Origin: an uncultured Limosilactobacillus sp.
GTDB lineage: Bacteria; Bacillota; Bacilli; Lactobacillales; Lactobacillaceae
Assembly (NCBI GenBank): GCA_944327195.1
Contig: CALVGV010000013.1
Span: forward strand, 1-56,104
DNA length: 56,104 nucleotides
Reading direction: 5' to 3'
Made by a program: the position numbers and the translations under genes. The notes beneath the pieces are model-generated. The model saw nothing but the letters and a program-made list of their open reading frames with translations, did no database searches and was not told the DNA's origin. Positions 872 through 13,488 of this stretch are shown here, piece by piece. The first letter of the stretch is position 1; every line of letters starts with the position of its first letter.

Positions 872-1408
872 TTAGCTGACCGCCAGCAGGTGGCCGACGA
901 TCTCCTCGCTGACCCGGCGCATCTGGGCCGGCGTCTTGCGGGCGCCGTCCTGAAACCAGTAGTGCAGGAGGTTGCCCATCCCGCCGACAGCAAAGAAATA
1001 GACCGCTTTTTGGTTGGCGAAGGTCTCCTCGGCCAGCAGGCTCTGGTCGATCTGGGCCAGCAAGCGTTCCTGGACGAGGCCGAGGAGCTGGTTACTGGCC
1101 AGCCGGTCGAGCAGGGGCCGCCATTCCTGGCAGTGGGCGAAGAAGCACTCTACCAGGGCCGGGAAGGTGGTGATCGCTTGGCTGTGCAGGGAGTGGTAGA
1201 AGCTGGAGCAGAAGCGGTCGACCTCGTGGGTGAGCAGGTCCTGGGGGCTCTTGAAGTGGCGGTAGAAGGTCCGCCGGGCCAGCTGGGCATTGTTGGTGAT
1301 GGCGGTCACGCTGATCTTGGAAAGGGGCTGCTGGTCCATTAGCTCCAGCAGGCTGGCGGTCAACCAGGCCACCGACTGGTCGGTTTGTTTTTTACGGGTT
1401 CGGGTCAC
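872..1408 (-). CDS. TetR/AcrR-family transcriptional regulator
   Basis: A 178-residue TetR-type repressor. Residues about 25-55 form the helix-turn-helix, with the typical recognition segment ARRTFYRHFKSPQDLL; the remaining helical part is the ligand and dimerisation domain and resembles the Lactobacillus/Streptococcus C-terminal type. The start is GTG at 1408, preceded by GGGAGG; upstream in-frame residues lack a ribosome site. It is divergent from two HXXEE membrane-protein genes whose promoter lies in the 103-bp gap, so it most likely represses them and itself. A TTCGCGCGAA palindrome sits in that gap. The inducer is unknown. Confidence 0.85.
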   Translation of the reverse strand: MTRTRKKQTDQSVAWLTASLLELMDQQPLSKISVTAITNNAQLARRTFYRHFKSPQDLLTHEVDRFCSSFYHSLHSQAITTFPALVECFFAHCQEWRPLLDRLASNQLLGLVQERLLAQIDQSLLAEETFANQKAVYFFAVGGMGNLLHYWFQDGARKTPAQMRRVSEEIVGHLLAVS

Positions 1409-1430
1409 AGTTTGCCTCCCATTGTGCCAC

Positions 1431-1473
1431 TTCGCGCGAACGCTTGAAGGGGCGCTTTTCCTCCCAGTATAAT
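1431..1473 (+). promoter_or_regulatory. Promoter of the HXXEE pair with palindromic operator candidate
   Basis: A -35-like TTGAAG (1444-1449) and a perfect -10 TATAAT (1468-1473) are 18 bp apart. The 10-bp perfect palindrome TTCGCGCGAA (1431-1440) lies just upstream and is the best TetR operator candidate; a second TCAC-AA-GTGA repeat lies at 1489-1498 near the transcription start. Confidence 0.6.
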
Positions 1474-1511
1474 TTACGTGTTTAAAAGTCACAAGTGAGA
1501 CAGGTTGGGAG

Positions 1512-2186
1512 ATGATTAAGGTGAACTGGTTTCTAAAAAAGTGGCACCTGGTTGGTGGGGGCCTCGGTTTGGTCCTGCTGGCCACTTTGCTGAGCTGGCA
1601 GCCGACGCTTAGTGGCCTTCAGTTCTGGCTAATCGCCAACCTGCTGGCCCTCTTTGCCCACCAGGTGGAGGAGTACCAGTTGCCGGGCGGGGCTCCGCTG
1701 GTAATCAACCGGGTGGTCTACCGGGAGAAAGAGCAACCGGACCGTTACCCGGGCAACGCCTGCTCGATCATGGTGGTCAACGTCACCGCCTGGCTGGTTT
1801 ACGGCCTGGCAATCCTCCTTCCTCACTGCTACTGGCTGGGGGTGGGGGTGATTTTCTTTAGCCTCTTTCAAATCCTCGGCCACCTGTTCGAAATGAACCT
1901 GGTCCTGCGCGTCTGGTACAACCCTGGCCTGGCCACCACGATCACCCTTTTCCCGCTGGTCGGCTGGGGCTACCTGCACCGCTTGGCCCAGCAGCACTTG
2001 CTAACGGCGGCCACCCTCGCCGGCGGTGGGCTGGTCCTGCTGGCCTGCATCCTGGGGACGATCGTTCTGCCGGTGCAAGTGCTCAAGGACCGCGCCACCC
2101 GCTGGGTGATTGACCCGCGCCAGGTGGCGGCCTTCCGGCGGGTGATGGCCCACTGCCGGTTTGGTCAAAGGGGGGTGGCAAAATGA
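1512..2186 (+). CDS. HXXEE-motif multi-pass membrane protein (first of tandem pair)
   Basis: A 224-residue hydrophobic protein with about five to six membrane segments. The family signature is H50-x-x-E53-E54 followed by YQLPGG, at the end of the second segment. A PGNACS motif around residue 80 and a further histidine in LGHLFEMNL (about residue 120), then YNPGL, are shared in part with the two other paralogues here. No biochemical role of the family is known to me. It is followed by its paralogue with an ATGA overlap, so the two are co-transcribed. ATG 1512 sits almost on the Shine-Dalgarno site; GTG 1521 (nine bases after GGGAG) is an alternative start three residues in. Confidence 0.8.
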   Translation: MIKVNWFLKKWHLVGGGLGLVLLATLLSWQPTLSGLQFWLIANLLALFAHQVEEYQLPGGAPLVINRVVYREKEQPDRYPGNACSIMVVNVTAWLVYGLAILLPHCYWLGVGVIFFSLFQILGHLFEMNLVLRVWYNPGLATTITLFPLVGWGYLHRLAQQHLLTAATLAGGGLVLLACILGTIVLPVQVLKDRATRWVIDPRQVAAFRRVMAHCRFGQRGVAK

Positions 2187-2869
2187 GGAAGCTAATTCAA
2201 AACTGGTACCAGCTGGCGGTCTACCTGGCCGGTGGCTACGCCCTCCTGCTGGGGCTGGGCAGCTGGACGGTGCAGCAGCGGGCCCTCCTTATGGGGCTGA
2301 TTCTGCTCCACCTCCATTTCTTTGAGGAATTCGGTTTTCCCGGTGGTTTTGCCTGGCTGGGGATCCGGGTGGAGATGTGGGCGGTCCCGCCGGTGGTTGC
2401 CGACTGGCCGCTCAACCAGCTGAGCGCCTTCTTTGGTAACGAGTGGTTTGCCCTGGTCGTCTACCTCCTGCCGCTCCTTTGCCCGTGGTGGCACTGGTTA
2501 GTGCTGGCGGCGCTGGTCTTCGCCTTCGCCGAGCTGGTGATGCACGCCCTGGTCTTCAACCTGGCTATGCGGACGGCCTATAACCCGGGGCTGGTCACCG
2601 CCCTTGGGTTGACCCTGGTGACCAGCTGGTACCTGTGGGACCGCGGCGGGGTGGCCGCCTTCACTTGGCTCGACCTCGCCCTGGCCATCGGGTGGATCGG
2701 GTTGAATTACTGGCTGGCCTTCCGCTCGCCCCTCTTTGACTGGTTCAACTGCCAGCGGGCCTACACCTTCCGGCCGGCCGACCTCGCCAAGTCCGCCCCC
2801 TACCTGAAAAAGGAGGGACGGACCCTGGCCGACTACCGCTTCCCGGGCGACGAGCCGAAAGGTGATTAG
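2183..2869 (+). CDS. HXXEE-motif multi-pass membrane protein (second of tandem pair)
   Basis: A 228-residue membrane protein. H45-x-x-E48-E49 followed by FGFPGGF is the HXXEE signature. A second conserved block, AELVMHALVF and then YNPGL, matches the equivalent region of its neighbour. The start codon overlaps the previous stop (ATGA), implying translational coupling and perhaps a heteromeric complex. The C-terminal about 40 residues are hydrophilic. Sequence similarity to the first copy is concentrated around the motifs, so the duplication is old. The function is unknown; control by the divergent TetR protein is inferred from position. Confidence 0.8.
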   Translation: MRKLIQNWYQLAVYLAGGYALLLGLGSWTVQQRALLMGLILLHLHFFEEFGFPGGFAWLGIRVEMWAVPPVVADWPLNQLSAFFGNEWFALVVYLLPLLCPWWHWLVLAALVFAFAELVMHALVFNLAMRTAYNPGLVTALGLTLVTSWYLWDRGGVAAFTWLDLALAIGWIGLNYWLAFRSPLFDWFNCQRAYTFRPADLAKSAPYLKKEGRTLADYRFPGDEPKGD

Positions 2870-2890
2870 GGGCAAAAAAAGTTGCCAAAC

Positions 2891-2932
2891 TTGATTCTGG
2901 TCAAGAAAAAGCTTCGTCAATTGGGCTATCCT
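2891..2932 (+). promoter_or_regulatory. FNR-type box and class II promoter
   Basis: TTGAT-TCTG-GTCAA (2891-2904) differs from the FNR consensus TTGATNNNNATCAA at one base. A -10 TATCCT lies at 2927-2932 without a good -35. With transcription starting near 2939 the box centre (2897.5) falls at about -41.5, the position used by FNR/CRP activators at class II promoters. The operon it would drive encodes an FNR-like protein, so autoregulation is likely. Confidence 0.65.
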
Positions 2933-2972
2933 TAGAAGCGTCAAGAACGATGAAAGAGAAAGGATGGTTCAA

Positions 2973-3533
2973 ATGCCAACGTACAAAGCAGAACTCACGC
3001 CGCTCAACGCCGCCAAGATCGGGTGCGCGCCGCACGGGACGGTGACCTTCACCGAAACGGCCACCAGCCTGAAGATACGCCTCGAGATGTTTGATACCCC
3101 GGCCGAGATCCAGCACTGGGAACACTTCCACGGCTTCCCGGACGGCCGGGCGGCCACGGTGCCAACCGCGGCCCAGGACACCAATCACGACGGCTTCATC
3201 GACCTGCCGGAAACCGCCGTCGTCTCCGGGACGACGATGGTGCCGCTCGACGCCGCCCCGCACGAAATGTGCATTCCCAACGACCACTACCCGGTGGCCG
3301 ACGCTAATGGTCACTACGCCTACGAAAAGGAGGTCCCGCTGGCCAAGCTCAAGGCCAAGTTTGAGGAGACCTTCCACACGGCCGACCTGGCCCTCGACAA
3401 GCGGGTCGTCTACGTTCACGGGGTGCCGGCCGACCTGGAACTGCCGGAGACGGTCGGCGGCAAGATTAACGACGACTACGACCAGCACGTGACCCTGCCG
3501 ATCGCGGCCGGGCGGATTGAGCGGGTGGACTAA
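2973..3533 (+). CDS. CHRD-like protein with an EF-hand calcium loop
   Basis: A 186-residue protein with no signal peptide or membrane segment. A perfect 12-residue EF-hand loop is visible (D69, N71, D73, G74, D77, E80 in DTNHDGFIDLPE). The flanks (HWEHFHGFPDG at 49-59, and a final LPIAAGRIERV strand) recall CHRD-type beta domains, but I am unsure of that assignment. ATG 2973 is chosen since AGAAAGG lies nine bases upstream; ATG 2964 touches that site. The stop overlaps the start of the Crp/Fnr gene (TAATG), so the two are coupled. The function is unknown; calcium binding by a cytosolic protein is an inference from the loop. Confidence 0.7.
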   Translation: MPTYKAELTPLNAAKIGCAPHGTVTFTETATSLKIRLEMFDTPAEIQHWEHFHGFPDGRAATVPTAAQDTNHDGFIDLPETAVVSGTTMVPLDAAPHEMCIPNDHYPVADANGHYAYEKEVPLAKLKAKFEETFHTADLALDKRVVYVHGVPADLELPETVGGKINDDYDQHVTLPIAAGRIERVD

Positions 3534-4180
3534 TGCACGACGAACTCGCCTGCCTGAGCAAGGCCAAGCTCTTCTCCGGCCTACCGCAACCGGTGCTGGA
3601 AGCCGTCAACCAGGTGGCCACCCACCGCCAGTTCTTCAAGCGCGGCGCCCTGGTGGCCGGGCCGCTCGATGCCGGCCAGTTGCTGGTGATTGACGAGGGC
3701 CAGCTGCAGGTGACCACCAGCGACGCGGCCGGACAGCGCCGGGTGCTCGACCTCCTGCCGGCTGGGATGGTGGTCGGCCAGGAGCGGCTCTTTTCCGGGA
3801 GTCAGCTGGCCACCAGCCTCGAGGCGGCGACCGATGCCTGGGTCTGCTCGATTGCCGCCCCGAATTTCCAGCGCCTGCTCCGCGAGAACGGTCAGCTGGC
3901 CCTGGTGATCCTGAACGCCTTCGGCCAGCGGCTGGCCTCGCTGGAGAAGGCGACCGCCCGCCGCGAACTCTTGCCGGTGGCCGACCGGGTAGTGGCCTAC
4001 CTGACCGACTGGGCGGCCGCCGCCGGGAGCACTAGCTTTCGCCTGCCGATCAGCAAGCAGGACTTTGCCGGCCTGATCGGGGTGGCGCCGGCGACCCTCT
4101 CCCGCCAGCTGACCGCCCTCCAGGACCAGGGGGTGATCGCCATGCAGGGGCGGCAGATCACTTTATGTGAGCAAAAGTAA
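3533..4180 (+). CDS. Crp/Fnr-family regulator resembling Lactobacillus FLP
   Basis: A 215-residue protein: an N-terminal cyclic-nucleotide-binding-type beta-roll (about 10-120), a dimer helix, and a Crp-type winged helix-turn-helix (about 165-212) whose recognition helix has the FNR-like SR pair (APATLSRQLTAL). It lacks the cysteine cluster of iron-sulfur FNR but has C7 and C105, closely matching the two cysteines that form a redox disulfide in L. casei FLP. It is coupled to the preceding EF-hand gene and lies behind an FNR-like box, so it probably controls its own operon in response to oxidants. The family call is sure; the redox switch is inferred. Confidence 0.85.
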   Translation: MHDELACLSKAKLFSGLPQPVLEAVNQVATHRQFFKRGALVAGPLDAGQLLVIDEGQLQVTTSDAAGQRRVLDLLPAGMVVGQERLFSGSQLATSLEAATDAWVCSIAAPNFQRLLRENGQLALVILNAFGQRLASLEKATARRELLPVADRVVAYLTDWAAAAGSTSFRLPISKQDFAGLIGVAPATLSRQLTALQDQGVIAMQGRQITLCEQK

Positions 4181-4182
4181 CA

Positions 4183-4220
4183 AATCCCGGGCGGGGAAAT
4201 TCCCCGGCCGGGATTGTTTT
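4183..4220 (+). terminator. Terminator of the FLP-like operon
   Basis: A stem of 13 pairs with one mismatch (4183-4196 with 4202-4215) is followed by TTGTTTT. Confidence 0.85.
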
Positions 4221-4229
4221 AATGGCGGC

Positions 4230-4498
4230 TTAGTCCGCCGGAATGAGGTGCGAGATCGCCTGGATTTGCTGGCCCACCGAGTAGGTGAAGTAGTGCTTGT
4301 TGCGATCGAGAGCGTCGATTACTGCCATCTCGGCCGGGGTCAGGGCGAAGTTGAGGATGTTGATGTTACCTCGCGTGTGTTGCGGGTTGGTGGCCTTCGG
4401 GAAGATGATGTTGCCGTGCTGGAGGTGCCAGCGTAGGATCACCTGGACGCTGGTCTTGTGGTACCTCTCCTCCTTTTGGATTTGTTGTTGAATTGCTT
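4230..4498 (-). pseudogene. C-terminal remnant of an aldo/keto reductase
   Basis: About 89 codons read as the end of a 2,5-diketo-gluconate-reductase-type aldo/keto reductase: YHKTSVQVILRWHLQHGN, then PKATNP, then LTPAEMAVIDALDRN. The catalytic tetrad and most of the barrel (about 190 residues) are missing, and a stop codon lies in frame immediately upstream (about 4498-4500). The stop codon of the original gene is intact. It is an inert relic between the FLP-like operon and the osmolyte transporter. Confidence 0.85.
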
Positions 4499-4575
4499 TT
4501 TAGCATAGTGGTTAGTCACTCACCGACCGATCACCACTTGGACCGCCAGTGTCGAAAAGGGGGCGGCGCAAATCG

Positions 4576-4604
4576 TTGACAAGAGCCGCCGAAGCTCCAA
4601 TAAT
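4576..4604 (+). promoter_or_regulatory. Promoter of the OpuC-like operon
   Basis: TTGACA (4576-4581), a 17-bp spacer and AATAAT (4599-4604) precede the binding-protein gene by about 20 bases, leaving a very short leader. Confidence 0.65.
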
Positions 4605-4627
4605 TAACAAGCGTTAGGGGGATGGGG

Positions 4628-5518
4628 ATGAAGAAACGACTTACATTGATGGTGCTTTTGGCCCTGGTGACCTGCCTGCTGGCCATCCCGGCGCGGGCGG
4701 CGACGATCACCGTTGGCTCCAAGGCCTTCACCGAAAGCGAGCTGGTGAGCGAGCTCTACGCCGACGCCCTTTCCCGGGCTGGCTTCCACGTGGTCCGCAA
4801 GCAGGACCTCTCCAGCGCGGTCATCTACCGGGCAACCCAGACCGGCCAGGTGGACCTCTACCCCGAATACACCGGCACGATCGTCCTCGCCTACCTGAAA
4901 AAGGACGCCAGCGGCAAGCCAGCCGCCGCGGTGGCCCGGTTGGCCGCCCGCGGGGTCAAGAAGCTGGGCTTGGTGACCCTCACTCCGGCCCCGGCCGACG
5001 ACCGCCAGGGGATTGCTGTCCGCACCGTGGTGGCCAAGCGCTACCATCTGAAGACGATCAGCGACCTCCAGCGCCAGGCCAGCCACCTGCGCTTCGTCTC
5101 CCAGGGGGAGTTCGACAAGCGCTCCGACGGCCTGCCGGGGATGGAGCGGGTCTACGGCAAGTTTCGCTTCAAACGGGTGACCGACTACGCCGACGGCCTC
5201 AAGTACCGGGTGCTGGCCAGCGGCGCCGGCGACGTTGCCCCGGTTTCGACCACCGATGGCCAGCTGACCAGCAAGCAGTTCACCCTCTTAAAAGACGACC
5301 GCCACCTCTGGCCGGCCTACAACCTGGTCCCGCTGGCCAACCGGAAGGTGATTGAACAGCACCCAAAGGTGGCCCGGGTCCTCAACCAAGTCGACGCCAA
5401 GCTGACCACCGCCACCCTGATCCGGCTCAACCGCCAGGTGACCGTGGAGGGCAAGAACTACCGCCAGGTTGCCCGTGCCTGGGTGAAGAAGCACCTGAAG
5501 GGGGGTGACCTGCGATGA
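4628..5518 (+). CDS. Osmoprotectant (glycine betaine/carnitine/choline) ABC transporter substrate-binding protein
   Basis: A 296-residue OpuCC/YehZ-type periplasmic-binding fold. It begins with a Sec signal ending ARAA and then TITVGSKAFTES, the classical start of this family, with DLYPEYTGT further on. The lipobox is poor (LVTC, with threonine before the cysteine), so it may be cleaved at ARA and secreted, or retained by its signal, rather than lipid-anchored. ATG 4628 has AGGGGG seven bases upstream; ATG 4622 overlaps it. It is the first gene of a four-gene operon with ATGA-type overlaps. The substrate cannot be fixed from sequence. Confidence 0.9.
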   Translation: MKKRLTLMVLLALVTCLLAIPARAATITVGSKAFTESELVSELYADALSRAGFHVVRKQDLSSAVIYRATQTGQVDLYPEYTGTIVLAYLKKDASGKPAAAVARLAARGVKKLGLVTLTPAPADDRQGIAVRTVVAKRYHLKTISDLQRQASHLRFVSQGEFDKRSDGLPGMERVYGKFRFKRVTDYADGLKYRVLASGAGDVAPVSTTDGQLTSKQFTLLKDDRHLWPAYNLVPLANRKVIEQHPKVARVLNQVDAKLTTATLIRLNRQVTVEGKNYRQVARAWVKKHLKGGDLR

Positions 5519-6153
5519 ATGCCGTCGTTACTTACTTTCAGACCTACGGCGGGGAGTATTGGCAGGAGGTTGGCCAGCACCTCCTCTTGAGCGGGCTGGC
5601 GCTGGCGATCTCGCTGGTGATTGCCTTGCCGCTGGGCTACTGGGGGAGCAAGCAGCCGCGGGTGGCCGCGGTCTGCACCGCCTTCTCCCAGTTGCTGCGG
5701 ATCGTGCCCAGCCTGGCCCTCCTCTTCTTGCTGATCCCGCTCCTCGGCACCGGCCTGGTCCCGGCCCTGGTTGCCTTGGTGGCGCTGGCCCTGCCGCCCT
5801 TGCTGGTCAACACCGTCCTCGGCTTCACCCAGGTCGACCCAACCCTAAAGGAGGTGGGCGTCGCCCTCGGGATGGACGCCCGCCAGCTGCGCCGCCAGGT
5901 TGAGCTGCCGCTGGCCCTGCCCTACCTGCTGAACGGGGTCAAGCTGGCTCTGGTCGAGATCATCGCCAGCGCCAGCCTGGCCGCCTACATCGGCGCCGGC
6001 GGCCTGGGGGTGCTGATCTTCACCGGCCTCGGCCTCTACAACCTGACCTACGTCACCATCGGCGGCGGTAGCGTCGCCCTCCTCTCACTGGCCACGATGG
6101 TCGGCTTCGACTTACTGATTAAGAAGGTGAAAGCAAATGGCCCCGGCAATTGA
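5515..6153 (+). CDS. OpuC-like ABC transporter permease (first)
   Basis: A 212-residue inner-membrane subunit with five to six transmembrane segments. The coupling loop EVGVALGMDARQLRRQVELP is the EAA motif that contacts the ATPase. The ATG overlaps the binding-protein stop by four bases. Together with the second permease it would form a heterodimeric channel. Order in the operon: binding protein, permease, ATPase, permease. Confidence 0.9.
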   Translation: MNAVVTYFQTYGGEYWQEVGQHLLLSGLALAISLVIALPLGYWGSKQPRVAAVCTAFSQLLRIVPSLALLFLLIPLLGTGLVPALVALVALALPPLLVNTVLGFTQVDPTLKEVGVALGMDARQLRRQVELPLALPYLLNGVKLALVEIIASASLAAYIGAGGLGVLIFTGLGLYNLTYVTIGGGSVALLSLATMVGFDLLIKKVKANGPGN

Positions 6154-6901
6154 ATTTTCCCACGTCGCCAAGGACTTCGGCGGCCGGCGGGTGCTGGCCG
6201 ACCTCTCCTTTGCCGTTGCGCGCGGCGAACTGGTGACGATCCTCGGCTCCTCCGGCTCGGGGAAGACGACCACCCTCAAGCTGGTCAACGGTCTCCTGAC
6301 CCCCGACGGCGGGACGGTCCGGGTCGGCGGCAAGCCGTTGGCCGACCAGGACCTGGTGGAACTGCGCCGCCACATCGGCTACGTCGTTCAGCAGACCGGC
6401 CTCTTCCCCCACCTGACCGTCGGTGAAAACATCGCCGTCGTTCCCCGCCTGCTGGGCTGGCCGAAAGAGAAGATCCAGGCGCGGGTGGCCGACTTGCTGG
6501 CCCTGGTCCGCCTCGATCCCGCCTGTGCCGACCGCGCCCCGCGCCAGCTTTCTGGTGGTCAGCAGCAGCGGGTCGGCGTCGCCCGGGCGCTAGCGGCCAA
6601 CCCGCCCTACGTCCTCTTCGACGAGCCCTTCGGCGCCCTCGACGCCCTCACCCGCCAGGAACTGCAGGGGGAGGTTCGGCGCATCCACCGGTCGCTGGCC
6701 GGCAAGACCTTCCTCTTTGTTACCCACGACATCAACGAGGCCCTCTATCTCGGCCAGCGGGTGCTGGTGATGAAGGACGGCGCGATCGAGCAGTTCGCTG
6801 CCCCGGCGGAGCTGGTGGCCCACCCGGCGACCCCCTTCGTGGCCGACCTGCTGGCGACCGTCCAGCAGAACCGCGCCCTCTGGGGGTGGCAGGATGATTG
6901 A
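6137..6901 (+). CDS. OpuC-like ABC transporter ATP-binding protein, without CBS domains
   Basis: A 254-residue ATPase. Walker A GSSGSGKTT (about 35-43), Q-loop VVQQTGLFPHLTV, signature [15 protein letters not shown], Walker B VLFDEPFGALD and the switch histidine in FVTHD are all intact. OpuCA-type ATPases of Bacillus and Listeria carry about 130 further residues with two CBS domains that gate transport by ionic strength; here the protein stops after the nucleotide-binding domain. It overlaps the preceding gene by 17 bases and the next by eight. Confidence 0.9.
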   Translation: MAPAIEFSHVAKDFGGRRVLADLSFAVARGELVTILGSSGSGKTTTLKLVNGLLTPDGGTVRVGGKPLADQDLVELRRHIGYVVQQTGLFPHLTVGENIAVVPRLLGWPKEKIQARVADLLALVRLDPACADRAPRQLSGGQQQRVGVARALAANPPYVLFDEPFGALDALTRQELQGEVRRIHRSLAGKTFLFVTHDINEALYLGQRVLVMKDGAIEQFAAPAELVAHPATPFVADLLATVQQNRALWGWQDD

Positions 6902-7529
6902 CTACTGGCGGCAAAACTCGGCGGCCCTGCTGGCGGCGCTGGACCAACACGCGGTGATGGTCTTTTCGGCCCTCGGCCTGGCGGCGGGGCTGGCAATCAT
7001 TCTGGTGGCCTGGTTGCTCCGCCACCCCCGTTGGCAGGGGTGGACGGTCTACTTCTTCTCACTGCTCTACGCGGTGCCGAGCTTCGCCTTCTTCGTCCTG
7101 CTCCTGCCGCTGACCGGCCTGGGGATGAAGACGGCGGTGATCGTGCTGGCCACCTACAGTGAGTACGTCCTCCTGCGCTCCTGGTTGACCGGGCTGGCGA
7201 CGGTCGACCCGACCCTGGTGGAGGTGGCCCGCGGCCTGGGGATGACCCGTCGCCAGTGCTTCTTCAAGGTTCAGCTCCCCCTGGCCCTGCCGGCGATTTT
7301 CGCCGGCCTTCAGGTGGCGCTGGCCTCGCTGATGGGGATCGCCACGATCGCAGCGACGATCAACGCCGGCGGCCTCGGTACCTTCCTCTTCGCCGGCCTG
7401 GCCACCAGCCGGCCGACGCCGATCATCTGGGGGACCCTGCTGACGGTTGGCCTGACCCTGGTCAGCATGGCTGCCCTCAAGCTGATCGAGTGGCTCCTGG
7501 AGCGCCGTTGGCAACCGGAGAGAAAGTAA
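6894..7529 (+). CDS. OpuC-like ABC transporter permease (second)
   Basis: A 211-residue membrane subunit, a paralogue of the permease two genes upstream, with the EAA loop EVARGLGMTRRQCFFKVQLP and about five membrane segments. It starts inside the end of the ATPase gene. It is the last gene of the operon and is followed by a strong terminator. Confidence 0.9.
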   Translation: MIDYWRQNSAALLAALDQHAVMVFSALGLAAGLAIILVAWLLRHPRWQGWTVYFFSLLYAVPSFAFFVLLLPLTGLGMKTAVIVLATYSEYVLLRSWLTGLATVDPTLVEVARGLGMTRRQCFFKVQLPLALPAIFAGLQVALASLMGIATIAATINAGGLGTFLFAGLATSRPTPIIWGTLLTVGLTLVSMAALKLIEWLLERRWQPERK

Positions 7530-7566
7530 AAACACCGCTGATGATTGTCATCAACGGTGTTTTTTG
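7528..7566 (+). terminator. Terminator of the osmolyte transporter operon
   Basis: AACACCG and TGATGA pair with TCATCA and CGGTGTT around a TTG loop; TTTTTT follows. Confidence 0.9.
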
Positions 7567-7579
7567 ATAGTTAAAGTTA

Positions 7580-7652
7580 TGGACCATGCGAGATTCGAAC
7601 TCGCGACCCCCTGCATGCGAAGCAGATACTCTCCCAACTGAGCTAATGGCCC
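7580..7652 (-). tRNA. tRNA-Ala (anticodon CGC)
   Basis: A 73-nt cloverleaf on the minus strand. The acceptor stem is GGGCCAT with ATGGTCC and discriminator A; it includes the G3-U70 wobble pair, the alanine identity element. The anticodon loop TTCGCAT gives CGC, reading GCG. CCA is not encoded. Confidence 0.95.
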
Positions 7653-7704
7653 CTTACGGCCTTCATTATAGCAGAACTTGGGGAAGCCGGCGGGGGAAAT
7701 TTAT

Positions 7705-8250
7705 TTATTTATTTATCAGCCGGCGGACCTCCCGCTCGACCAGTGGGAATTGGCGGAAGCCGTCACTGGTCAGGAAGTGGCCGCCGTGGGCCTTGGTGAT
7801 CAGCTTGGCGTCGAGTTGCTGGGCGATGCGGCGACCCTGCTGCCAGGGAGCGATCGGGTCGTCCTTGGCAACGATCACCGTGGCCGCCGCCAGCTTGGCG
7901 CGGAGGGCCGGGTAGTCGGGGGCCGGGCTGAGGAAACTATTCAGCCCGGGGTAGAGCGGCAGGGGTTGGTCGAAGGGGGCCACCAGGATCAATCGGGCGC
8001 CGGTCACCTGGTGGCGACCCAGGTAGCGAAGGGCGGTGATCCCGCCGAGACTGTGGGTGATCAGGGTCAGCTTGTCTTCGGCCGGAATTTGCTGGTCGAG
8101 GGCGGCGTCCCAGGCCGCCGGGGTGGGCGAAAAGGGGTGGGGCAAGGAGAGGCGGTGGAGGGTGATGGTGGGCGCGAGGGCCTCCTCGAGCCAGGGAAAC
8201 CAGTCGTCCTCCTTGGTTGAGGTGCCGTGAATCAGGTAGGCGCTAGGCAT
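7705..8250 (-). CDS. Alpha/beta hydrolase of the RBBP9/YdeN serine-hydrolase family
   Basis: A 181-residue small serine hydrolase. The nucleophile is S67 in THSLGG; the acid is D130 or D131 in AKDDPI, and the base H158 in HGGHF; YLIHGTSTKED near the start forms the oxyanion region. The substrate is unknown. The start at 8250 puts GAAAGG nine bases away; the upstream ATG at 8259 touches that site. It is a single gene between two tRNAs and its terminator is not obvious. Confidence 0.85.
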   Translation of the reverse strand: MPSAYLIHGTSTKEDDWFPWLEEALAPTITLHRLSLPHPFSPTPAAWDAALDQQIPAEDKLTLITHSLGGITALRYLGRHQVTGARLILVAPFDQPLPLYPGLNSFLSPAPDYPALRAKLAAATVIVAKDDPIAPWQQGRRIAQQLDAKLITKAHGGHFLTSDGFRQFPLVEREVRRLINK

Positions 8251-8369
8251 GGCAGACATCCTTTCGTTTTTTCTCCACGATAGCGCGAATTGCGGCCGCC
8301 GGCAAGAAAATTTGAAAAAGGGCTAGCCAGGGGCACGAAGATCTGGTATATTATCTATGTTAAGAAGTT

Positions 8370-8442
8370 GCTGACTTAGCTCAGTTGGCAGAGCAACGCA
8401 TTAGTAATGCGTAGGTCGAAGGTTCGAATCCTTTAGTCAGCA
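8370..8442 (+). tRNA. tRNA-Thr (anticodon AGT)
   Basis: A 73-nt cloverleaf: acceptor GCTGACT with AGTCAGC, discriminator A, anticodon stem ACGCA with TGCGT, loop TTAGTAA. The anticodon is AGT, i.e. A34, which needs deamination to inosine to read ACU, ACC and ACA. Threonine A34 tRNAs are rare in bacteria. CCA is not encoded. Confidence 0.93.
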
Positions 8443-8455
8443 TAATAAACATTGC

Positions 8456-8503
8456 AAAAGCTATCAACAGTGCCTTTTATGAAGGTTGTTGATAGCTTTT
8501 TTC
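8456..8503 (+). terminator. Terminator downstream of tRNA-Thr
   Basis: AAAAGCTATCAACA pairs with TGTTGATAGCTTTT; the inner part holds ACCTTC/GAAGGT-like pairing, and a T-run follows. Confidence 0.9.
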
Positions 8504-8532
8504 GTTAGTTTCAGTTAGTTGGTTCTCAACAT

Positions 8533-8676
8533 TTACTCACGCATAAGAAAACACCGAATATTGAGAAAATTAGAGTATCGAGGGAGCCGGAAACCATTAG
8601 CAGATCAAGGTTTGAGGTGGCTAAACTGTGAGTAAGGATTAGTAAGGGTCAGAGATTTCCTCCGGCTCTTTTTTGC
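8533..8676 (+). other. Structured non-coding segment ending in a T-run
   Basis: No gene is seen between 8504 and 8779. TTACTCAC (8533-8540) is complementary to GTGAGTAA (8628-8635), while GAGCCGGA (8584-8591) is complementary to TCCGGCTC (8661-8668), which is followed by TTTTTT. The two pairings interlock, so they are alternatives or a pseudoknot. This could be a small RNA, an attenuator for the downstream reductase gene, or a relic of an integration next to the tRNA. No known family is recognised. Confidence 0.35.
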
Positions 8677-8691
8677 AATCGGAGAAACCGC

Positions 8692-8719
8692 TTGCATTCT
8701 CGTCGCAATGAACTATCAT
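8692..8719 (+). promoter_or_regulatory. Promoter of the diacetyl reductase gene
   Basis: TTGCAT (8692-8697) and TATCAT (8714-8719) are separated by 16 bp, downstream of the structured segment's T-run. Confidence 0.5.
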
Positions 8720-8779
8720 TGAATCACCGGGAAAACCGGCACGGAAAGCAGTTTTGATTTTAAGGAAGAGAGTGGTTTG

Positions 8780-9568
8780 ATGGCAGAACAACAACGGGTT
8801 GCAGTGATTACCGGGAGCAGTCGCGGGATTGGCCGCGGGATCGCTGAACAACTGGGCAAGGATGGTTACGCCCTGGTGATCAACGGTTACCACCAGGAAG
8901 AAACCGAGAAGGCCGCCGCGGAACTGACCGCGGCCGGTTTCAAGGCGGTGGCCCTGGCCGGCGACGTTTCCAAGAAGGAAACCCACGAGGCCCTGGTTAA
9001 GCTGGCGGTGGACACGTACGGCCGCCTCGACACCTACATCAACAACGCCGGGATCGCCCAGATCGGCAACCTGACCGACGAAACGGCCGAGGAATTCCAC
9101 AAGATCTACGCCACCAACGTCGACAGCGTCCTCTTCGGCATCCAGGCCGCCGCGGCCCAGTTCAAGAAGCAGGACGACGGCGACCAGATTCGCAAGATCA
9201 TCAACGCCTCCAGCATCGCTGGCCACATCGGCTTTGAGCAGCTGGGCGCCTACTCGTCAACCAAGTTTGCCATCCGCGGCCTGACCCAAGTGGCGGCCAA
9301 GGAACTGGCCAAGTACCACATCACCGTCAACGCCTACTGCCCGGGGATCGTCGGCACTGACATGTGGGATTACATCGACGAGCGGATGGTTGAAGAAAAC
9401 GGCGGGCAGAAGGGCCAGTACCTGAAGGCCGCCATCGACAGCATCGCCCTCGGCCGGGCCGAAACCCCGGCCGACGTGGCCAACTTCGTCTCCTACCTCG
9501 CCTCGACCAAGGCCGACTACATGACCGGTCAGGCGGTTCAGATCGACGGTGGGATCCAGTTCATTTAA
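8780..9568 (+). CDS. butA: Diacetyl/acetoin reductase (short-chain dehydrogenase)
   Basis: A 262-residue classical SDR. Nucleotide motif TGSSRGIGRG near residue 12, NNAG, catalytic serine in NASSIAG and the YSSTK tyrosine-lysine pair are all present, and the C-terminus ends GGIQ as in (S)-acetoin-forming diacetyl reductases / meso-butanediol dehydrogenases. It would reduce diacetyl to acetoin and acetoin to butanediol with NADH, recycling NAD. The ATG at 8780 has AAGGAAGAG upstream. Another SDR activity cannot be excluded, but the overall match to the ButA group is good. It is monocistronic. Confidence 0.8.
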   Translation: MAEQQRVAVITGSSRGIGRGIAEQLGKDGYALVINGYHQEETEKAAAELTAAGFKAVALAGDVSKKETHEALVKLAVDTYGRLDTYINNAGIAQIGNLTDETAEEFHKIYATNVDSVLFGIQAAAAQFKKQDDGDQIRKIINASSIAGHIGFEQLGAYSSTKFAIRGLTQVAAKELAKYHITVNAYCPGIVGTDMWDYIDERMVEENGGQKGQYLKAAIDSIALGRAETPADVANFVSYLASTKADYMTGQAVQIDGGIQFI

Positions 9569-9583
9569 ATCTAGCCAGAAGGG

Positions 9584-9634
9584 GAGTCGTGTTTGTCACC
9601 CAGCCGGGATGGCGAGCGCGGCTCTTTTGTTTTG
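9584..9634 (+). terminator. Terminator of butA
   Basis: GAGTCGTG (9584-9591) pairs with CGCGGCTC (9617-9624) using two U-G wobbles, with an inner CACCC/GGGATG hairpin; CTTTTGTTTT follows. Confidence 0.6.
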
Positions 9635-9737
9635 GCGAAATTGTGCGATTCTTCTCAATTTTGTGGGGTGGGAAAGGCCTGCCTTCTTTATCGTGAAATC
9701 GTGATTTTTTGACTTTTACAGCCGGGGTTAAGCCCAA

Positions 9738-9793
9738 CTGAACCCACCGTTCAGAATCCGCTAATTGGCAGGCACCGCTTACAATGTTACCTT
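9738..9793 (+). promoter_or_regulatory. Palindromic operator and promoter before the OYE gene
   Basis: CTGAAC-CCACC-GTTCAG (9738-9754) is a perfect 6-bp inverted repeat with a 5-bp spacer. A TTGGCA -35 (9765-9770) and weak -10 TACCTT (9788-9793), 17 bp apart, lie just downstream. No regulator gene is adjacent. The rest of 9635-9737 shows nothing else. Confidence 0.45.
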
Positions 9794-9823
9794 ATTCACA
9801 GATAGCGAATGGAGGTAATCATC

Positions 9824-11047
9824 ATGACCAAGCAACTCACCGATTCCGTCACCTTCCGCCACGGGGCAACCATTTCCAGCCGGATCGTTCAGCCGCCGAT
9901 GCTGACCAACTCCGGCAAGGACGGCTTCGTGACCGAGGACACCCTCGCCTACTACGGGGCCCGCTCCCAGTCGGCCGGGATGATCATCGTCGAATACACC
10001 GGCTCCAGCGAAAACGGCTGGCCGTCCCGCTCCTGGGCCGCCGACCGGGAACAACTGGCGATCTTTGACGACAAGTTCCTCCCGGGGATGACCAAGCTGG
10101 CAACGGCGATCAAGAAGGACGGCAACAAGGCCCTCCTCCAGATTTGTCACACCGGGCGTGAGGCCAACTACCGGGCAACGATGGGCAAGCCGGTCTACGC
10201 ACCGAGTGCGATGGACGTGCCCTTCCTCGACTACAAGCTGCACGAACTGAGTGACGAGCAAATCCGCCAGATCATCAAGGACTTCGGCACCGCCACCGAG
10301 CGGGCGATCAAGGCCGGCTTCGACGGGGTGGAAATCCACGGCGCCAACCACTACCTGCTGCAGGAATTCTTCTCCAAGTGGTCCAACCGGCGGACCGACC
10401 ACTGGGGTGGTAGCCTCGAAAAGCGGATGAACTTCGCCAAGGAGGTCTGCGCCGAGGTGATGCGGGTGGTCAAGCAGGAGGCGCCGAAGGACTTCATCGT
10501 CGGCTACCGGATCAGCCCGGAGGAAATCCACGATACGGTGGGCTACGACTGGCACGAGTCGACCCAGTTGATCAAGGCCCTGACTGACCAGTTCGACTTC
10601 GACTACGTCCACCTCTCCCTGCCGAAGTACGACACCAAGCCGAAGGACAGCGACCGGACCTTCGGTGAACTCTTCCAGCCGGTGCTCAACGGGGCCAAGG
10701 AAATCATCGTCGGCGACGTGATGAGCGAGGAGGCCGCCAAGGACGCCCTCAACTACACCGACCTGGTGGCAGTTGGCCGGGCAATCCTGATCGACCCCGA
10801 ATTCGGCCTCAAGATCAAGGAGGGCCGCGGTGACCAGATCGTCCACGAGATCTCGCCAGATCAAGTGAAGGCCGCCAAGCTGACGCCGGGGCTGATCAAC
10901 CTCTTCTCCGACATGAAGATGGAGCCGCACCTGCCGGGCCGCGAGTCGATTGCCCACCTCCACGAGGCCGGCAGCCTCAACGCCGCCGTGATCCACAACG
11001 GCACCAAGTCCGATATTTCGGACCTGGAGCAGGGGACACTGAAGTAG
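9824..11047 (+). CDS. Old Yellow Enzyme family NADH:flavin oxidoreductase
   Basis: A 407-residue TIM-barrel flavoenzyme. The proton-donor/substrate-binding pair is H172 and N175 in IHGANHYLL; the FMN-binding ends are IVGDVMS and VAVGRAIL. The length is near that of the short OYE class without the C-terminal iron-sulfur domain of 2,4-dienoyl-CoA reductases. It reduces activated alkenes such as enones or related electrophiles with NAD(P)H. ATG 9824 follows GGAGG by eight bases; ATG 9809 precedes that site. The lipoate ligase gene follows after a terminator; this pairing recalls SirTM-type operons (see findings). Confidence 0.9.
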   Translation: MTKQLTDSVTFRHGATISSRIVQPPMLTNSGKDGFVTEDTLAYYGARSQSAGMIIVEYTGSSENGWPSRSWAADREQLAIFDDKFLPGMTKLATAIKKDGNKALLQICHTGREANYRATMGKPVYAPSAMDVPFLDYKLHELSDEQIRQIIKDFGTATERAIKAGFDGVEIHGANHYLLQEFFSKWSNRRTDHWGGSLEKRMNFAKEVCAEVMRVVKQEAPKDFIVGYRISPEEIHDTVGYDWHESTQLIKALTDQFDFDYVHLSLPKYDTKPKDSDRTFGELFQPVLNGAKEIIVGDVMSEEAAKDALNYTDLVAVGRAILIDPEFGLKIKEGRGDQIVHEISPDQVKAAKLTPGLINLFSDMKMEPHLPGRESIAHLHEAGSLNAAVIHNGTKSDISDLEQGTLK

Positions 11048-11059
11048 AAGCACAGTTAC

Positions 11060-11102
11060 AAAATCGTCCCGCCACGATCCGTGGAGCGGGACGATTTTCT
11101 TT
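11060..11102 (+). terminator. Terminator of the OYE gene
   Basis: AAAATCGTCCCGC pairs with GCGGGACGATTTT around a CCACGATCCGTGG tip; TCTTTT follows. The tip motif recurs at three other terminators here. Confidence 0.95.
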
Positions 11103-11117
11103 TCGGCGGAAAAGGAC

Positions 11118-11151
11118 TATCATAATGAACAAGTAAGGGTTTTCTTGTTCA
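11118..11151 (+). promoter_or_regulatory. Putative -10 and inverted repeat before lplA
   Basis: TATCAT (11118-11123) or the overlapping CATAAT is followed directly by TGAACAAG (11126-11133), ten bases, and CTTGTTCA (11144-11151), a perfect 8-bp inverted repeat at the expected transcript start. It could be an operator or a leader hairpin. Confidence 0.45.
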
Positions 11152-11180
11152 AGATAAACACGCTGAAAGGAAGCGAGTGC

Positions 11181-12149
11181 ATGTTTCTAATCGATACCAG
11201 CCGCAACGGCAAGCCGGTCTACGACCCGCTAATCAACCAGTCGCTCGACGCCTACCTGATCAACGACCTGCGCCTGGAGGGGCACGGGCTGATCTGCTAC
11301 ATCAACGATCCGGCGGTGATCATCGGCCGCTACCAAAACGCCTACGCCGAGGTCAACCTGCCCTACCTCAAGGAGCACGGCATCAAACTGGTGCGGCGGA
11401 CCAGCGGCGGCGGGGCCGCCTACCACGACCGCGGCAACATCATCTTCGAAAACATCGTCGTCGGCGACACCTCCGGCTTTCGCAACTTCAAGCAGGTCGG
11501 CGCCCCGATCGTTGAGGCCCTCCACGACCTCGGCGTCAGCGGGGCCGAGGTCCGCGGCCGCAACGACATGGCCGTCGACGGCAAGAAGTTCTCGAGGATG
11601 GCGATGGTCAAGGTTGACGGGGCCTACGCCGCCGGCGGCACCATCCTCTACGACCTCAACCAGGAGGTCGCCCGCACCGTTTTGACCCCCGACATCGGCA
11701 AGCTCGAGTCGAAGGGGATCAAGTCGGTTGACGCCCGGATCACCAACCTCAAGCCCTACCTGCCGGAAAAGTACCAGCACTGGACCAGCGAGGACTTCAA
11801 GAACTACCTCCTCTGCCACATGTTCAAGGTTGACCGGGTCGAAGACATCCCCACCTACCACCTGACCGAGAAGGATTGGGAGGTCATCGACGCCCGCCAG
11901 GAGGCCAAGTTTGCCACCCACCACTGGAACTTCGGCCACAACCCGGGCTACGCCCACTACGTCTCCCACCACTTCCCGATCGGCACCGTTTCCTTCAACT
12001 TCAACATTAAGGACCGTCACATCAGTGAGATCAAGCTCTTCGGTGACTTCTTCACCACCGGCGATCCCCACCTGATCGAGCAGGCCCTGACCGGGGTCGA
12101 GTACAGCGACGAGGCCATCCAGGCCGCCCTGATCATGCAGGTGCTGTAA
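11181..12149 (+). CDS. Lipoate-protein ligase A family protein, variant active site
   Basis: A 322-residue LplA-type enzyme. RRTSGGGAAYHDRGN (72-86) is the canonical lipoyl-adenylate loop, and GRNDMAVDGKKFS (126-138) gives the catalytic lysine region. The next part departs from typical LplA: the usual KxSG(N/S)A reads KFSRMA, and the HHGT motif reads AGGT. The C-terminal accessory domain is present. It would attach lipoate, or octanoate, to an E2 or GcvH-like domain. ATG 11181 is used because GAAAGGAAG lies ahead of it. It is separate from the OYE gene by a terminator, with its own probable promoter. Confidence 0.85.
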   Translation: MFLIDTSRNGKPVYDPLINQSLDAYLINDLRLEGHGLICYINDPAVIIGRYQNAYAEVNLPYLKEHGIKLVRRTSGGGAAYHDRGNIIFENIVVGDTSGFRNFKQVGAPIVEALHDLGVSGAEVRGRNDMAVDGKKFSRMAMVKVDGAYAAGGTILYDLNQEVARTVLTPDIGKLESKGIKSVDARITNLKPYLPEKYQHWTSEDFKNYLLCHMFKVDRVEDIPTYHLTEKDWEVIDARQEAKFATHHWNFGHNPGYAHYVSHHFPIGTVSFNFNIKDRHISEIKLFGDFFTTGDPHLIEQALTGVEYSDEAIQAALIMQVL

Positions 12150-12154
12150 AAAAA

Positions 12155-12199
12155 TGCGGGCGCCCCGCCACTTTCCGTGGCCCGGGGCGCCCGCGTTTG
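12155..12199. terminator. Bidirectional terminator between lplA and TetR gene
   Basis: GCGGGCGCCCCG pairs with CGGGGCGCCCGC around CCACTTTCCGTGG; GTTTGTTTG on one side and A-rich sequence on the other let it serve both converging genes. Confidence 0.9.
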
Positions 12200-12203
12200 T
12201 TTG

Positions 12204-12728
12204 TCAGCGAATCAGCAGGGAATCAATCATCCGGAAGAGCTCCGCCCGCGGCAGGTCCTTCTTGCGCTTCAGCCAGAGCTGAAAGAGGCTCAGGATGGTC
12301 GAGATGTGGTACTCCACCAGGTAGGGGAAGAACTGGTCCTGCTTGGCGGCGAAGACCTTCGGGAAGGCGTTCACCAGCTCGGCCTTGAAGCGGGCCTTGA
12401 AGGCGGCCGAGCCATACTCGCCGAGCAGGGCGGTCAGCTCCTGCTCATGGGCGGCGTAGAGGGCGGTCGCCTGGGCGATGAACTGCGACTCGTTACTGGC
12501 CTCGTCGGCGGCCATGATCTGCCGGATCGCCGCCAGCACCGTGTCCTCAACCTCGGTCCGCAGCTCGGCCAGGTTGGTGTAGTAGAGGTAGAAGTTGGAC
12601 CGCGAGCAGCCGGCGGCCTTCACCACCTCGCGGACGGTGATCTTTTCAAAGGGCTTTTCGGCGTAGGCGGCGCAAAAAGCGGCCACCAGGCGCTGGCGGG
12701 TCTTTTCGGTGGTAGTTGACGGGGTCAT
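12204..12728 (-). CDS. TetR/AcrR-family regulator
   Basis: A 174-residue TetR repressor with an N-terminal helix-turn-helix (FEKITVREVVKAAGCSRSNF then YLYYTNLAEL). The start at 12728 has GGAGGAAG upstream. It is divergent from the third HXXEE membrane-protein gene, exactly as the TetR gene at 872-1408 is from the first two, yet the two regulators are clearly different in their C-terminal halves. It probably represses the HXXEE gene and itself through the GACAC/GTGTC repeat in the 100-bp gap. Confidence 0.85.
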   Translation of the reverse strand: MTPSTTTEKTRQRLVAAFCAAYAEKPFEKITVREVVKAAGCSRSNFYLYYTNLAELRTEVEDTVLAAIRQIMAADEASNESQFIAQATALYAAHEQELTALLGEYGSAAFKARFKAELVNAFPKVFAAKQDQFFPYLVEYHISTILSLFQLWLKRKKDLPRAELFRMIDSLLIR

Positions 12729-12742
12729 TTTCTTCCTCCATT

Positions 12743-12794
12743 GGACACATTTGGCCGGGGTGTCTACCGGCTTTTTGCAATTGGCAACTATAAT
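12743..12794 (+). promoter_or_regulatory. Operator candidate and promoter of the third HXXEE gene
   Basis: GGACAC (12743-12748) and GTGTCT (12760-12765) form an inverted repeat with an 11-bp spacer over the expected -35 region. A perfect TATAAT lies at 12789-12794. No good -35 is visible. Confidence 0.5.
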
Positions 12795-12828
12795 GGCGGC
12801 AACCAATCAATCGAAAGGGTGAATCCTC

Positions 12829-13488
12829 ATGAAAAAGTTCTTGAACCAGTTGCCGCACCTGCACCTCTATCTTAGCATTTCCTGCTTCATCATCACCGCC
12901 ACGATGCTGCTACTTCGCTTCGCCGACTTGACGGTGGTCGAGCGGCTGACCTACGCCTCCTTCTGCATCCTCTGCCTCCACATGCAAGAGGAGTACCGTC
13001 TCCCCGGCGGCTTCATCTACGGTCTGAACATGGTGATGGGCGCCAAGGACCCGCTAGCTGGGCCGGGCAACGGGGTTTCGGCCGCCACGGTTGACATGCT
13101 GACCCTAGTGATCTGGCTGCCGATGCTGCTGCTCGACTGCACGCCGGCCTTCTCCCTCTTCCTCTGCCTCTTCGGACTGATTGAGGCGGTGATGCACACC
13201 GGTTTCGGCCTGGTGGCCCACCACAAGCTGGCCGCCAAGGGGAAGGACACGATCTACTTCCCGGGCAACGCCACTGCCTGGTTCCTCTTTGCCCCGGTTG
13301 ACCTGGCCCTCTTGACCAAGTTGATCAGCGCCCACCTGCTGACCGCCGGCCAGTGGGGACTGATCGGTGCGATCATGGTGGTCTTCATCGTTGCCATCCT
13401 GGTGCTCGAACAGTTCCTGGCCAAGGTCGGCCAGGGGGTCGTCTACCGCACCCGGCCGGTCGAGGGCTACTTCAAGGCCTTCCGTTAA
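12829..13488 (+). CDS. HXXEE-motif multi-pass membrane protein (third copy)
   Basis: A 219-residue hydrophobic protein with about six membrane segments. H51-x-x-E54-E55 followed by YRLPGGF is the family signature, then GPGNGVSAATVDM (resembling PGNACS of the first copy) and a conserved histidine block IEAVMHTGFG. The YNPGL element of the tandem pair is absent; FPGNATAW occupies that region. It has its own TetR regulator. The function is unknown. Its TAA stop shares a TTAA palindrome with the stop of the convergent LysR gene. Confidence 0.8.
   Translation: MKKFLNQLPHLHLYLSISCFIITATMLLLRFADLTVVERLTYASFCILCLHMQEEYRLPGGFIYGLNMVMGAKDPLAGPGNGVSAATVDMLTLVIWLPMLLLDCTPAFSLFLCLFGLIEAVMHTGFGLVAHHKLAAKGKDTIYFPGNATAWFLFAPVDLALLTKLISAHLLTAGQWGLIGAIMVVFIVAILVLEQFLAKVGQGVVYRTRPVEGYFKAFR

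Follow-up and report, generated by a model that had tools for sequence, protein, structure and literature searches.

Divergent TetR-HXXEE cassettes in a Limosilactobacillus genome, one with a conserved HXXEE gene pair, as candidate inducible membrane detoxification units

The 56,104-nucleotide stretch of DNA analyzed here (the window) comes from contig C13 in the 1.79 Mb genome of an uncultured Limosilactobacillus sp. It carries three genes of the HXXEE family (PF13787), labelled as of unknown function in Pfam, which are arranged in two units with one divergent TetR gene each. After comparing these units with related loci, we propose that both cassettes serve inducible detoxification at the membrane, a reading to which we assign a probability of about one half. 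The first cassette contains two HXXEE genes, A and B, which recur together in other genera behind a conserved promoter site.

Two TetR-HXXEE cassettes in the window

All three HXXEE proteins passed the Pfam gathering score of 25 bits (55.5, 41.7 and 28.2 bits for the genes at 1512, 2183 and 12829, respectively), and the open reading frames at 872-1585 and 12204-12806 narrowly passed the TetR_N (PF00440) cut-off of 24, with 24.9 and 26.3 bits. These scores bear out the initial annotation, which had been made from the sequence alone and had described three HXXEE genes with divergent TetR genes in two cassettes. Its further statement that each HXXEE gene stands before a TetR gene of its own is right for the two cassettes, but gene 2183 comes second in the first unit, and the three HXXEE genes are thus accompanied by two TetR genes. 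Genes A and B overlap in an ATGA that holds the stop of A and the start of B, as had been annotated. No HXXEE match for the window proteins was returned by NCBIfam.

The longer TetR frame (to 1585) overlaps HXXEE gene 1512. Judged from sequence, the probable TetR starts are GTG 1411 and ATG 12728, each preceded by a GGAGG-like site, and the probable start of A is GTG 1521, with GGGAG 9 nucleotides before it. The window HXXEE proteins are 219-228 amino acids (aa) long, which we refer to as the long form. We defined an A-B paired module as adjoining members of HXXEE clades A and B with one divergent TetR gene; genes 1512 and 2183 form such a module. The features are collected in Table 1.

Table 1. 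Features of the two cassettes, in window coordinates
Feature	Position	Strand	Basis
TetR regulator, A-B cassette	872..1411	-	179 aa from GTG 1411; TetR_N over cut-off; in the A-B TetR clade, support 92
Dyad TTCGCGCGAA of the initial annotation	1431..1440		Once in window
Likely promoter of the A-B operon, TTGAAG-N18-TATAAT	1444..1473	+	From sequence
Putative operator AAGTCACAAGTGAGACAG, imperfect palindrome just past the -10 box	1486..1503	+	18-mer, leave-window-out matrix
HXXEE protein A	1512..2186	+	PF13787 E 1.1e-14; clade A (22 rows, support 100); about 6 hydrophobic segments by hydropathy
HXXEE protein B	2183..2869	+	PF13787 E 2.2e-10; clade B (23 rows, support 99); about 6 hydrophobic segments by hydropathy
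TetR regulator, second cassette	12204..12728	-	From ATG 12728; TetR_N over cut-off; groups with L085 and L087 TetRs
Second dyad, GACAC-N11-GTGTC	12744..12764		Once in window
HXXEE protein, second cassette (W3 type)	12829..13488	+	PF13787 E 3.5e-06; clade with L099 and L101 (support 98; 94 in the wider tree)

HXXEE genes and their linkage to TetR genes

The genome carries six HXXEE matches, three in the window and three elsewhere, which is more than any other genome of our genus, family, order and phylum samples. Matches over the cut-off were found in 3 of 50 genus, 58 of 397 family, 44 of 395 order and 15 of 398 phylum genomes; the samples overlap, and each includes the genome studied here. 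In a quick tree of 112 HXXEE proteins, the six fall into six different cross-genus clades, and therefore none of them arose by recent duplication. The two window cassettes belong to different HXXEE clades, in line with the initial annotation, which had regarded them as independent. Outside the window, locus L003 (L-numbers are the labels of the fetched loci) has a divergent TetR gene and is the third TetR cassette of the genome, and the HXXEE gene of L002 has no adjoining regulator. At L004:1324-2526 (contig C11), an HXXEE gene lies behind a same-strand MarR gene, a different regulator type beside the same family. With 25 TetR_N matches over its 1.79 Mb, the genome nevertheless has a divergent TetR gene at three of its five HXXEE units, which is more than chance.

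This linkage was also found across the family, where the loci comprised the surroundings of every family-sample match together with the genus matches. Among 76 HXXEE units of Lactobacillaceae, the window included, a TetR gene stood within 300 bp in divergent orientation in 45, upstream and co-directional in 4, and downstream in 1; the other 26 had none. TetR adjacency was seen in 12 of the 31 units classed as short (about 160 aa or fragments) and in 38 of the 45 others. A divergent TetR gene was the upstream neighbour of 44 of 90 HXXEE genes, compared with 18 of 682 other genes at the same loci. PF00440 matched 47 of the 50 adjacent TetR calls at E 0.01 and left three without a match; the call at L112:8551-9132 had no PF00440 match at 0.001, and one seed of our own TetR profile (L008) is of the PF00440-unmatched type. 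In the order outside the family, 21 of the 29 loci that were returned (a part of all order matches) were TetR-linked, 9 divergently and 12 co-directionally, many of them being near-identical Streptococcus genes. In S. mutans, one of three HXXEE genes was TetR-linked.

Four loci in which our own profile found no HXXEE frame (L052, L109, L110 and L111) lie outside the 76 units. The broken or partial HXXEE loci L105-L108 and L117 were counted as units and left out of the HXXEE tree, and L105-L108 were also left out of the Mantel test described below. As L105 and L106 are tandem through a broken frame only, there are 12 true tandem pairs, 11 with a divergent TetR gene and one (L068) with a TetR gene downstream.

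Several further observations were made at these loci. Four of the five broken or partial HXXEE genes, all in other Lactobacillaceae, still adjoin a TetR gene. Short HXXEE genes of one clade (L078, L079, L081 and L084) have DUF3021 or LytTR genes nearby in place of TetR genes, and one DUF3021 and one LytTR neighbour of this clade were confirmed by Pfam. Genes of short-chain dehydrogenase/reductase type, named by eye and given here as a raw count, occur in 11 loci; we do not claim them as partners. An apparent long HXXEE fusion at L205 was rejected, its front part being antisense to another long frame.

The A-B pair

In a quick tree, the first genes of the tandem pairs form one clade (12 rows, support 99) and the second genes another (12 rows, support 100). 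The wider tree, also a quick one, expanded these to the 22 rows of clade A and the 23 rows of clade B. Seventeen clade-A rows adjoin a B gene, two have B within 6 kb (L112 and L113) and three have none (L073, L161 and L165); among the clade-B rows, A adjoins 16, lies within 6 kb in two (again L112 and L113) and is absent as a neighbour from five (L102, L168, L180, L182 and L183). A scan of named genomes (25 loci) found the pair in Streptococcus loxodontisalivarius, S. agalactiae, Levilactobacillus acidifarinae and Lactobacillus nasalidis as well. Many of the scan loci L147-L164 come from the same genomes as the family loci, so the two sets should not be added. The pair also occurs in an actinobacterial metagenome-assembled genome, with a broken B frame, and both the A-B and the B-A order were found. 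Both proteins keep the H, E, E, second H, Y and G residues of the family, and thus neither looks like a dead partner. Judged from trees and gene order, the A-B tandem is an old module of two deep clades that are usually adjacent. At L165:3216-6213 of Necropsobacter rosorum (Pasteurellaceae), we also observed a clade-A HXXEE gene with a divergent TetR gene and a second HXXEE gene 1 kb on.

A probable operator of the A-B cassette

By eye, a TATAAT-like box stands at the matching place in most A-B loci, and an imperfect palindrome close to TGTCACAAnTGAGACA lies just downstream of this -10 box. We built a matrix from sites picked by eye in 12 loci and scored the window with the 11 others. The site at 1486-1503 reached 24.0 bits, and the next non-overlapping site on both strands of the 56 kb reached 8.23. 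In the leave-one-out test, the site ranked first in its own locus for all 12 matrix loci. Since the sites had been picked by eye, only these ranks and the loci outside the matrix test anything. Among 11 such loci, the best hit fell at the cassette in L060, L063, L102, L112, L113, L099 and L101, and L148 and L162 had a weaker hit. In L112, where A and B stand apart, a site precedes the likely start of each (20.7 and 16.0 bits). The only exact GTCWCAARTGWGAC site of the genome is the one at 1486-1503; allowing two mismatches or fewer raises the count to 15, compared with 14 for the reversed control. Taken as a sequence signal, 1486-1503 is the probable operator of the A-B cassette.

The initial annotation had named an operator dyad in each gap, and the two proposals fared differently. 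TTCGCGCGAA occurs in no other fetched locus outside the window region, whereas the 18-mer at 1486-1503 is conserved, so TTCGCGCGAA is probably not the conserved operator. For the second dyad, the half-site GACAC[TA]T was found in four of seven gaps with a 12204-type TetR gene, the window counted (mean 0.09 and maximum 2 in 2000 shuffles). This recurrence lends some support to the dyad, although the second cassette shares only the half-site with the other loci. A simple search for palindromes told little: p ≤0.05 was reached in 9 of 45 gaps, with neither window gap among them, and the best palindromes of the two window gaps were no better than shuffled ones (p 0.425 and 0.85). A count of TGTGAC/GTCACA (16 of 22 loci) was set aside in favour of the matrix test, because TetR start codons (GTG-ACA) inflate it.

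Near the TetR start, at 1424-1431, we noted a short TGTGC element, TGTGCCAC, which by eye recurs in most A-B loci and is possibly a second operator. The third cassette of the genome (L114), inspected by eye, is without the site of its clade relatives L093 and L094. At L116:5551-5566 (contig C24), an HXXEE gene without a TetR gene keeps the motif ATTGTTGATTGATGA, which is common to the TetR-linked cassettes of its clade and has its only exact match in the genome there. In the window, the region around 12.8 kb gave no match to this C24-type motif, a result that argues against the 12204 regulator sharing that site.

Relationship to MucF

Published work has established the chemistry of one branch of the family. 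MucF of S. mutans is an acylase annotated as an HXXEE domain-containing protein (PMC9112991; likewise acylase/HXXEE in PMC8757879), and this membrane protein detoxifies reutericyclin by deacylation (PMC9112991, PMC10161427). Two TetR genes, mucG and mucH, come after mucF in the muc cluster (PMC9112991). MucF35, MucF140 and 16 further homologues turn reutericyclin into mutanocyclin, the activity of MucF35 was seen in E. coli lysate, and detoxification by bacteria without a muc cluster has been proposed (PMC10161427). HXXEE genes also appear in the gene lists of PMC7513527 and PMC6098607, and the word itself is present in PMC9603813. The view taken in the initial annotation, that the family has no known function, is thus contradicted by MucF. 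Our literature search found no description of TetR-HXXEE cassettes outside the muc cluster or of the A-B pair; subscription journals were mostly outside its coverage, which makes this weak evidence of novelty.

In an alignment of 36 sequences, H50, E53, E54, P58, G59, G60, H124, Y136 and G139 (1512 numbering) were invariant, and all three window proteins, which were included, carry the H-x-x-E-E motif. The same residue set plus a Pro was invariant in 17 sequences spanning all six clades of the genome. MucF resembles the window proteins in its HXXEE annotation, its membrane location, the HxxEE motif and the TetR genes beside it. It differs in being a short form inside a biosynthetic cluster, whereas the window proteins are long forms in a genome without a condensation domain, and one of their cassettes holds two paralogues. 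The stand-alone MucF homologues of "smart" bacteria share with them the context of an HXXEE gene without a muc cluster and are proposed to detoxify the acylated tetramates of neighbours (PMC10161427). As such homologues are also active, location in a cluster has no bearing on activity (PMC10161427). They were chosen at >50% identity to MucF35 (PMC10161427), and the window proteins stand much further from the S. mutans short forms that we could compare. Membership of the window proteins in the class defined there by >50% identity and 90% coverage is unlikely, as judged by comparison with three S. mutans short forms, not with MucF35. The S. mutans genome was recognised by a published primer pair, and any of its three short HXXEE proteins may be the tested MucF homologue. 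We infer, by analogy, that the window proteins are MucF-like from the Pfam family, the motif, the TetR company and the membrane location (about six segments in A and B); an acylase activity would likewise be an extrapolation, because they are a distant long form.

History of the pairs and alternative explanations

The initial annotation had read the two cassettes as repeated capture of HXXEE genes by different TetR repressors. As the main history, this is very unlikely. Paired TetR and HXXEE distances correlated in Mantel tests, with r 0.59 for 46 pairs (p 0.0002), r 0.46 for 30 pairs after thinning (p 0.0002), r 0.39 for 23 long-form pairs (p 0.003) and r 0.81 for 13 A-B pairs (p 0.0002). Moreover, a single clade of 15 rows in a quick tree, with the 872 regulator inside, holds the TetRs beside the A-B pairs as well as three that adjoin only a B and one that adjoins only an A. 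Therefore co-inheritance dominates, and TetR and HXXEE genes, as far as trees and distances tell, mostly travel together. Capture stands for single events such as that of the second cassette. The 12829 HXXEE protein shares 47-48% identity with its nearest relatives, the HXXEE proteins of L099 and L101, but the TetRs of these loci differ in type from 12204 and are only 15% identical to it. Instead, the 12204 TetR groups with the TetRs beside C24-type HXXEE genes (L085 and L087, support 96), at 27% identity to the nearest of them and 30% to L089, a short TetR of another type. One regulator exchange at 12204 is thus likely. The own-genome C24-type HXXEE gene has no adjoining TetR gene, and our guess is that the 12204 regulator moved and may still act on it. 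Capture also gains from the own-genome C2 cassette (L114), whose TetR falls outside the group of its clade, and from HXXEE genes with other company, namely a preceding MarR gene (L004) or nearby DUF3021 and LytTR genes.

Two other explanations concern what the proteins do. In the first, their substrates would be lipids of the cell itself or fatty-acid intermediates, as in membrane remodelling, and the TetRs would respond to fatty acids or acyl-CoA. Such a role would suit membrane proteins in which a His/Glu set is conserved, and the window TetRs are weakly similar to FabR among many other regulators (E 1e-4 and 1.6e-8). However, this similarity is confined to the DNA-binding end and lies far below curated cut-offs, and for 872, DhaS and other regulators score as well as or better than FabR. 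The patchy occurrence of HXXEE genes in the genus and family samples (given above) fits an accessory function better than a housekeeping one, and we consider the own-lipid role improbable. The proteins could also be transporters or binding proteins for hydrophobic compounds rather than enzymes, as the roughly six hydrophobic segments of A and B would allow; efflux genes are, moreover, typically under TetR control. However, the invariant residues H, E, E, H, Y and G look like a catalytic set, and tested family members deacylate reutericyclin, in the case of MucF35 in E. coli lysate (PMC10161427). We hold a transport or binding role to be comparably improbable.

DISCUSSION

Overall, we propose a putative mechanism for the two cassettes. 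In each of them, the TetR repressor would sit on an operator just downstream of the HXXEE promoter and would be released by a hydrophobic ligand; that the TetR protein controls the adjacent HXXEE gene is very probable. The HXXEE products would be membrane proteins whose invariant H-x-x-E-E, second His and Y-x-P-G motif most likely builds a metal-type active site, which we infer from the residue pattern. They would act as amidohydrolases that take a fatty acyl group off an amphiphilic compound, as MucF does with reutericyclin, and we see the odds for and against an acyl-hydrolase activity as roughly balanced. In the first cassette, the old paralogues A and B would be produced together and would probably form a hetero-oligomer, and a physical A-B complex seems to us about as credible as separate action. 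TetR-controlled divergent efflux and detoxification cassettes have a divergent regulator, a palindrome between promoter and gene, and a probable hydrophobic inducer. The window cassettes probably have the same layout, but the effector is an HXXEE protein or pair and not a pump. The ligand-induced role against a hydrophobic compound that the initial annotation had suggested fits, by analogy, the detoxifying MucF branch, whose chemistry is the only one known in the family (PMC10161427, PMC9112991).

Several observations weigh against this proposal. No TetR gene lies within 300 bp of 26 of the 76 Lactobacillaceae units, and in the phylum sample only 2 of 20 units were TetR-linked (18 had none; two further loci were without an HXXEE frame). 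The enrichment beside TetR genes that the initial annotation had offered as a check was therefore found in Lactobacillaceae and in the order loci but not in the phylum sample, where short forms prevail. No clear operator-matrix site was found in L158 or L166. B-like proteins occur without A: those of L180, L182 and L183 have their own TetR gene, that of L168 stands beside another HXXEE gene, and that of L102 has a TetR gene. In S. agalactiae, B and A lie in one 449-aa frame with two PF13787 stretches, but A is still preceded by a Shine-Dalgarno-like site and ATG, so this frame need not be a functional fusion and we do not rest the case on it. The link to MucF is also distant. MucF is a short form encoded by a 0.5-kb gene (PMC10161427), compared with the 219-228 aa of the window proteins; in BLASTP at E 0.01, none of the three short S. 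mutans HXXEE proteins hit a long form, and comparing the profiles of the two forms yielded E 0.001 with only 21% probability. A profile search of solved structures returned no relative up to E 10. Finally, the genome has no nonribosomal peptide synthetase condensation domain, and the cassettes do not lie in a muc-like (type I) biosynthetic cluster. A self-made product of the reutericyclin type is therefore unlikely, and a role against outside compounds is likelier than self-protection.

A more far-reaching version of the proposal, which we regard as doubtful, is that A and B assemble into an obligate hetero-oligomer, an intramembrane metallo-amidase that is induced by its substrate through a dedicated TetR. 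A and B would then represent a widely shared two-subunit HXXEE acylase branch that disarms acylated amphiphiles of competitors or hosts in gut and food bacteria, and the differently regulated cassettes of one genome would serve different substrates.

The window also encodes, at 2964-3533, a 189-aa protein whose end coincides with the start of a Crp/Fnr-type regulator gene (3533-4180); neither Pfam at E 0.001 nor NCBIfam at E 1 returned a match for this protein.

One branch of the family was already known to combine a detoxifying HXXEE enzyme with TetR genes; the paired long forms with their conserved site appear to be a new form of such a system. With six HXXEE genes in one genome, though only 3 of the 50 genus genomes (itself included) have a match above the cut-off, this Limosilactobacillus is a good model. 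The long-form branch, with its own regulators, conserved site and two-protein module, offers direct experimental handles, as the regulators and sites could be used to find the inducers and hence, probably, the substrates.

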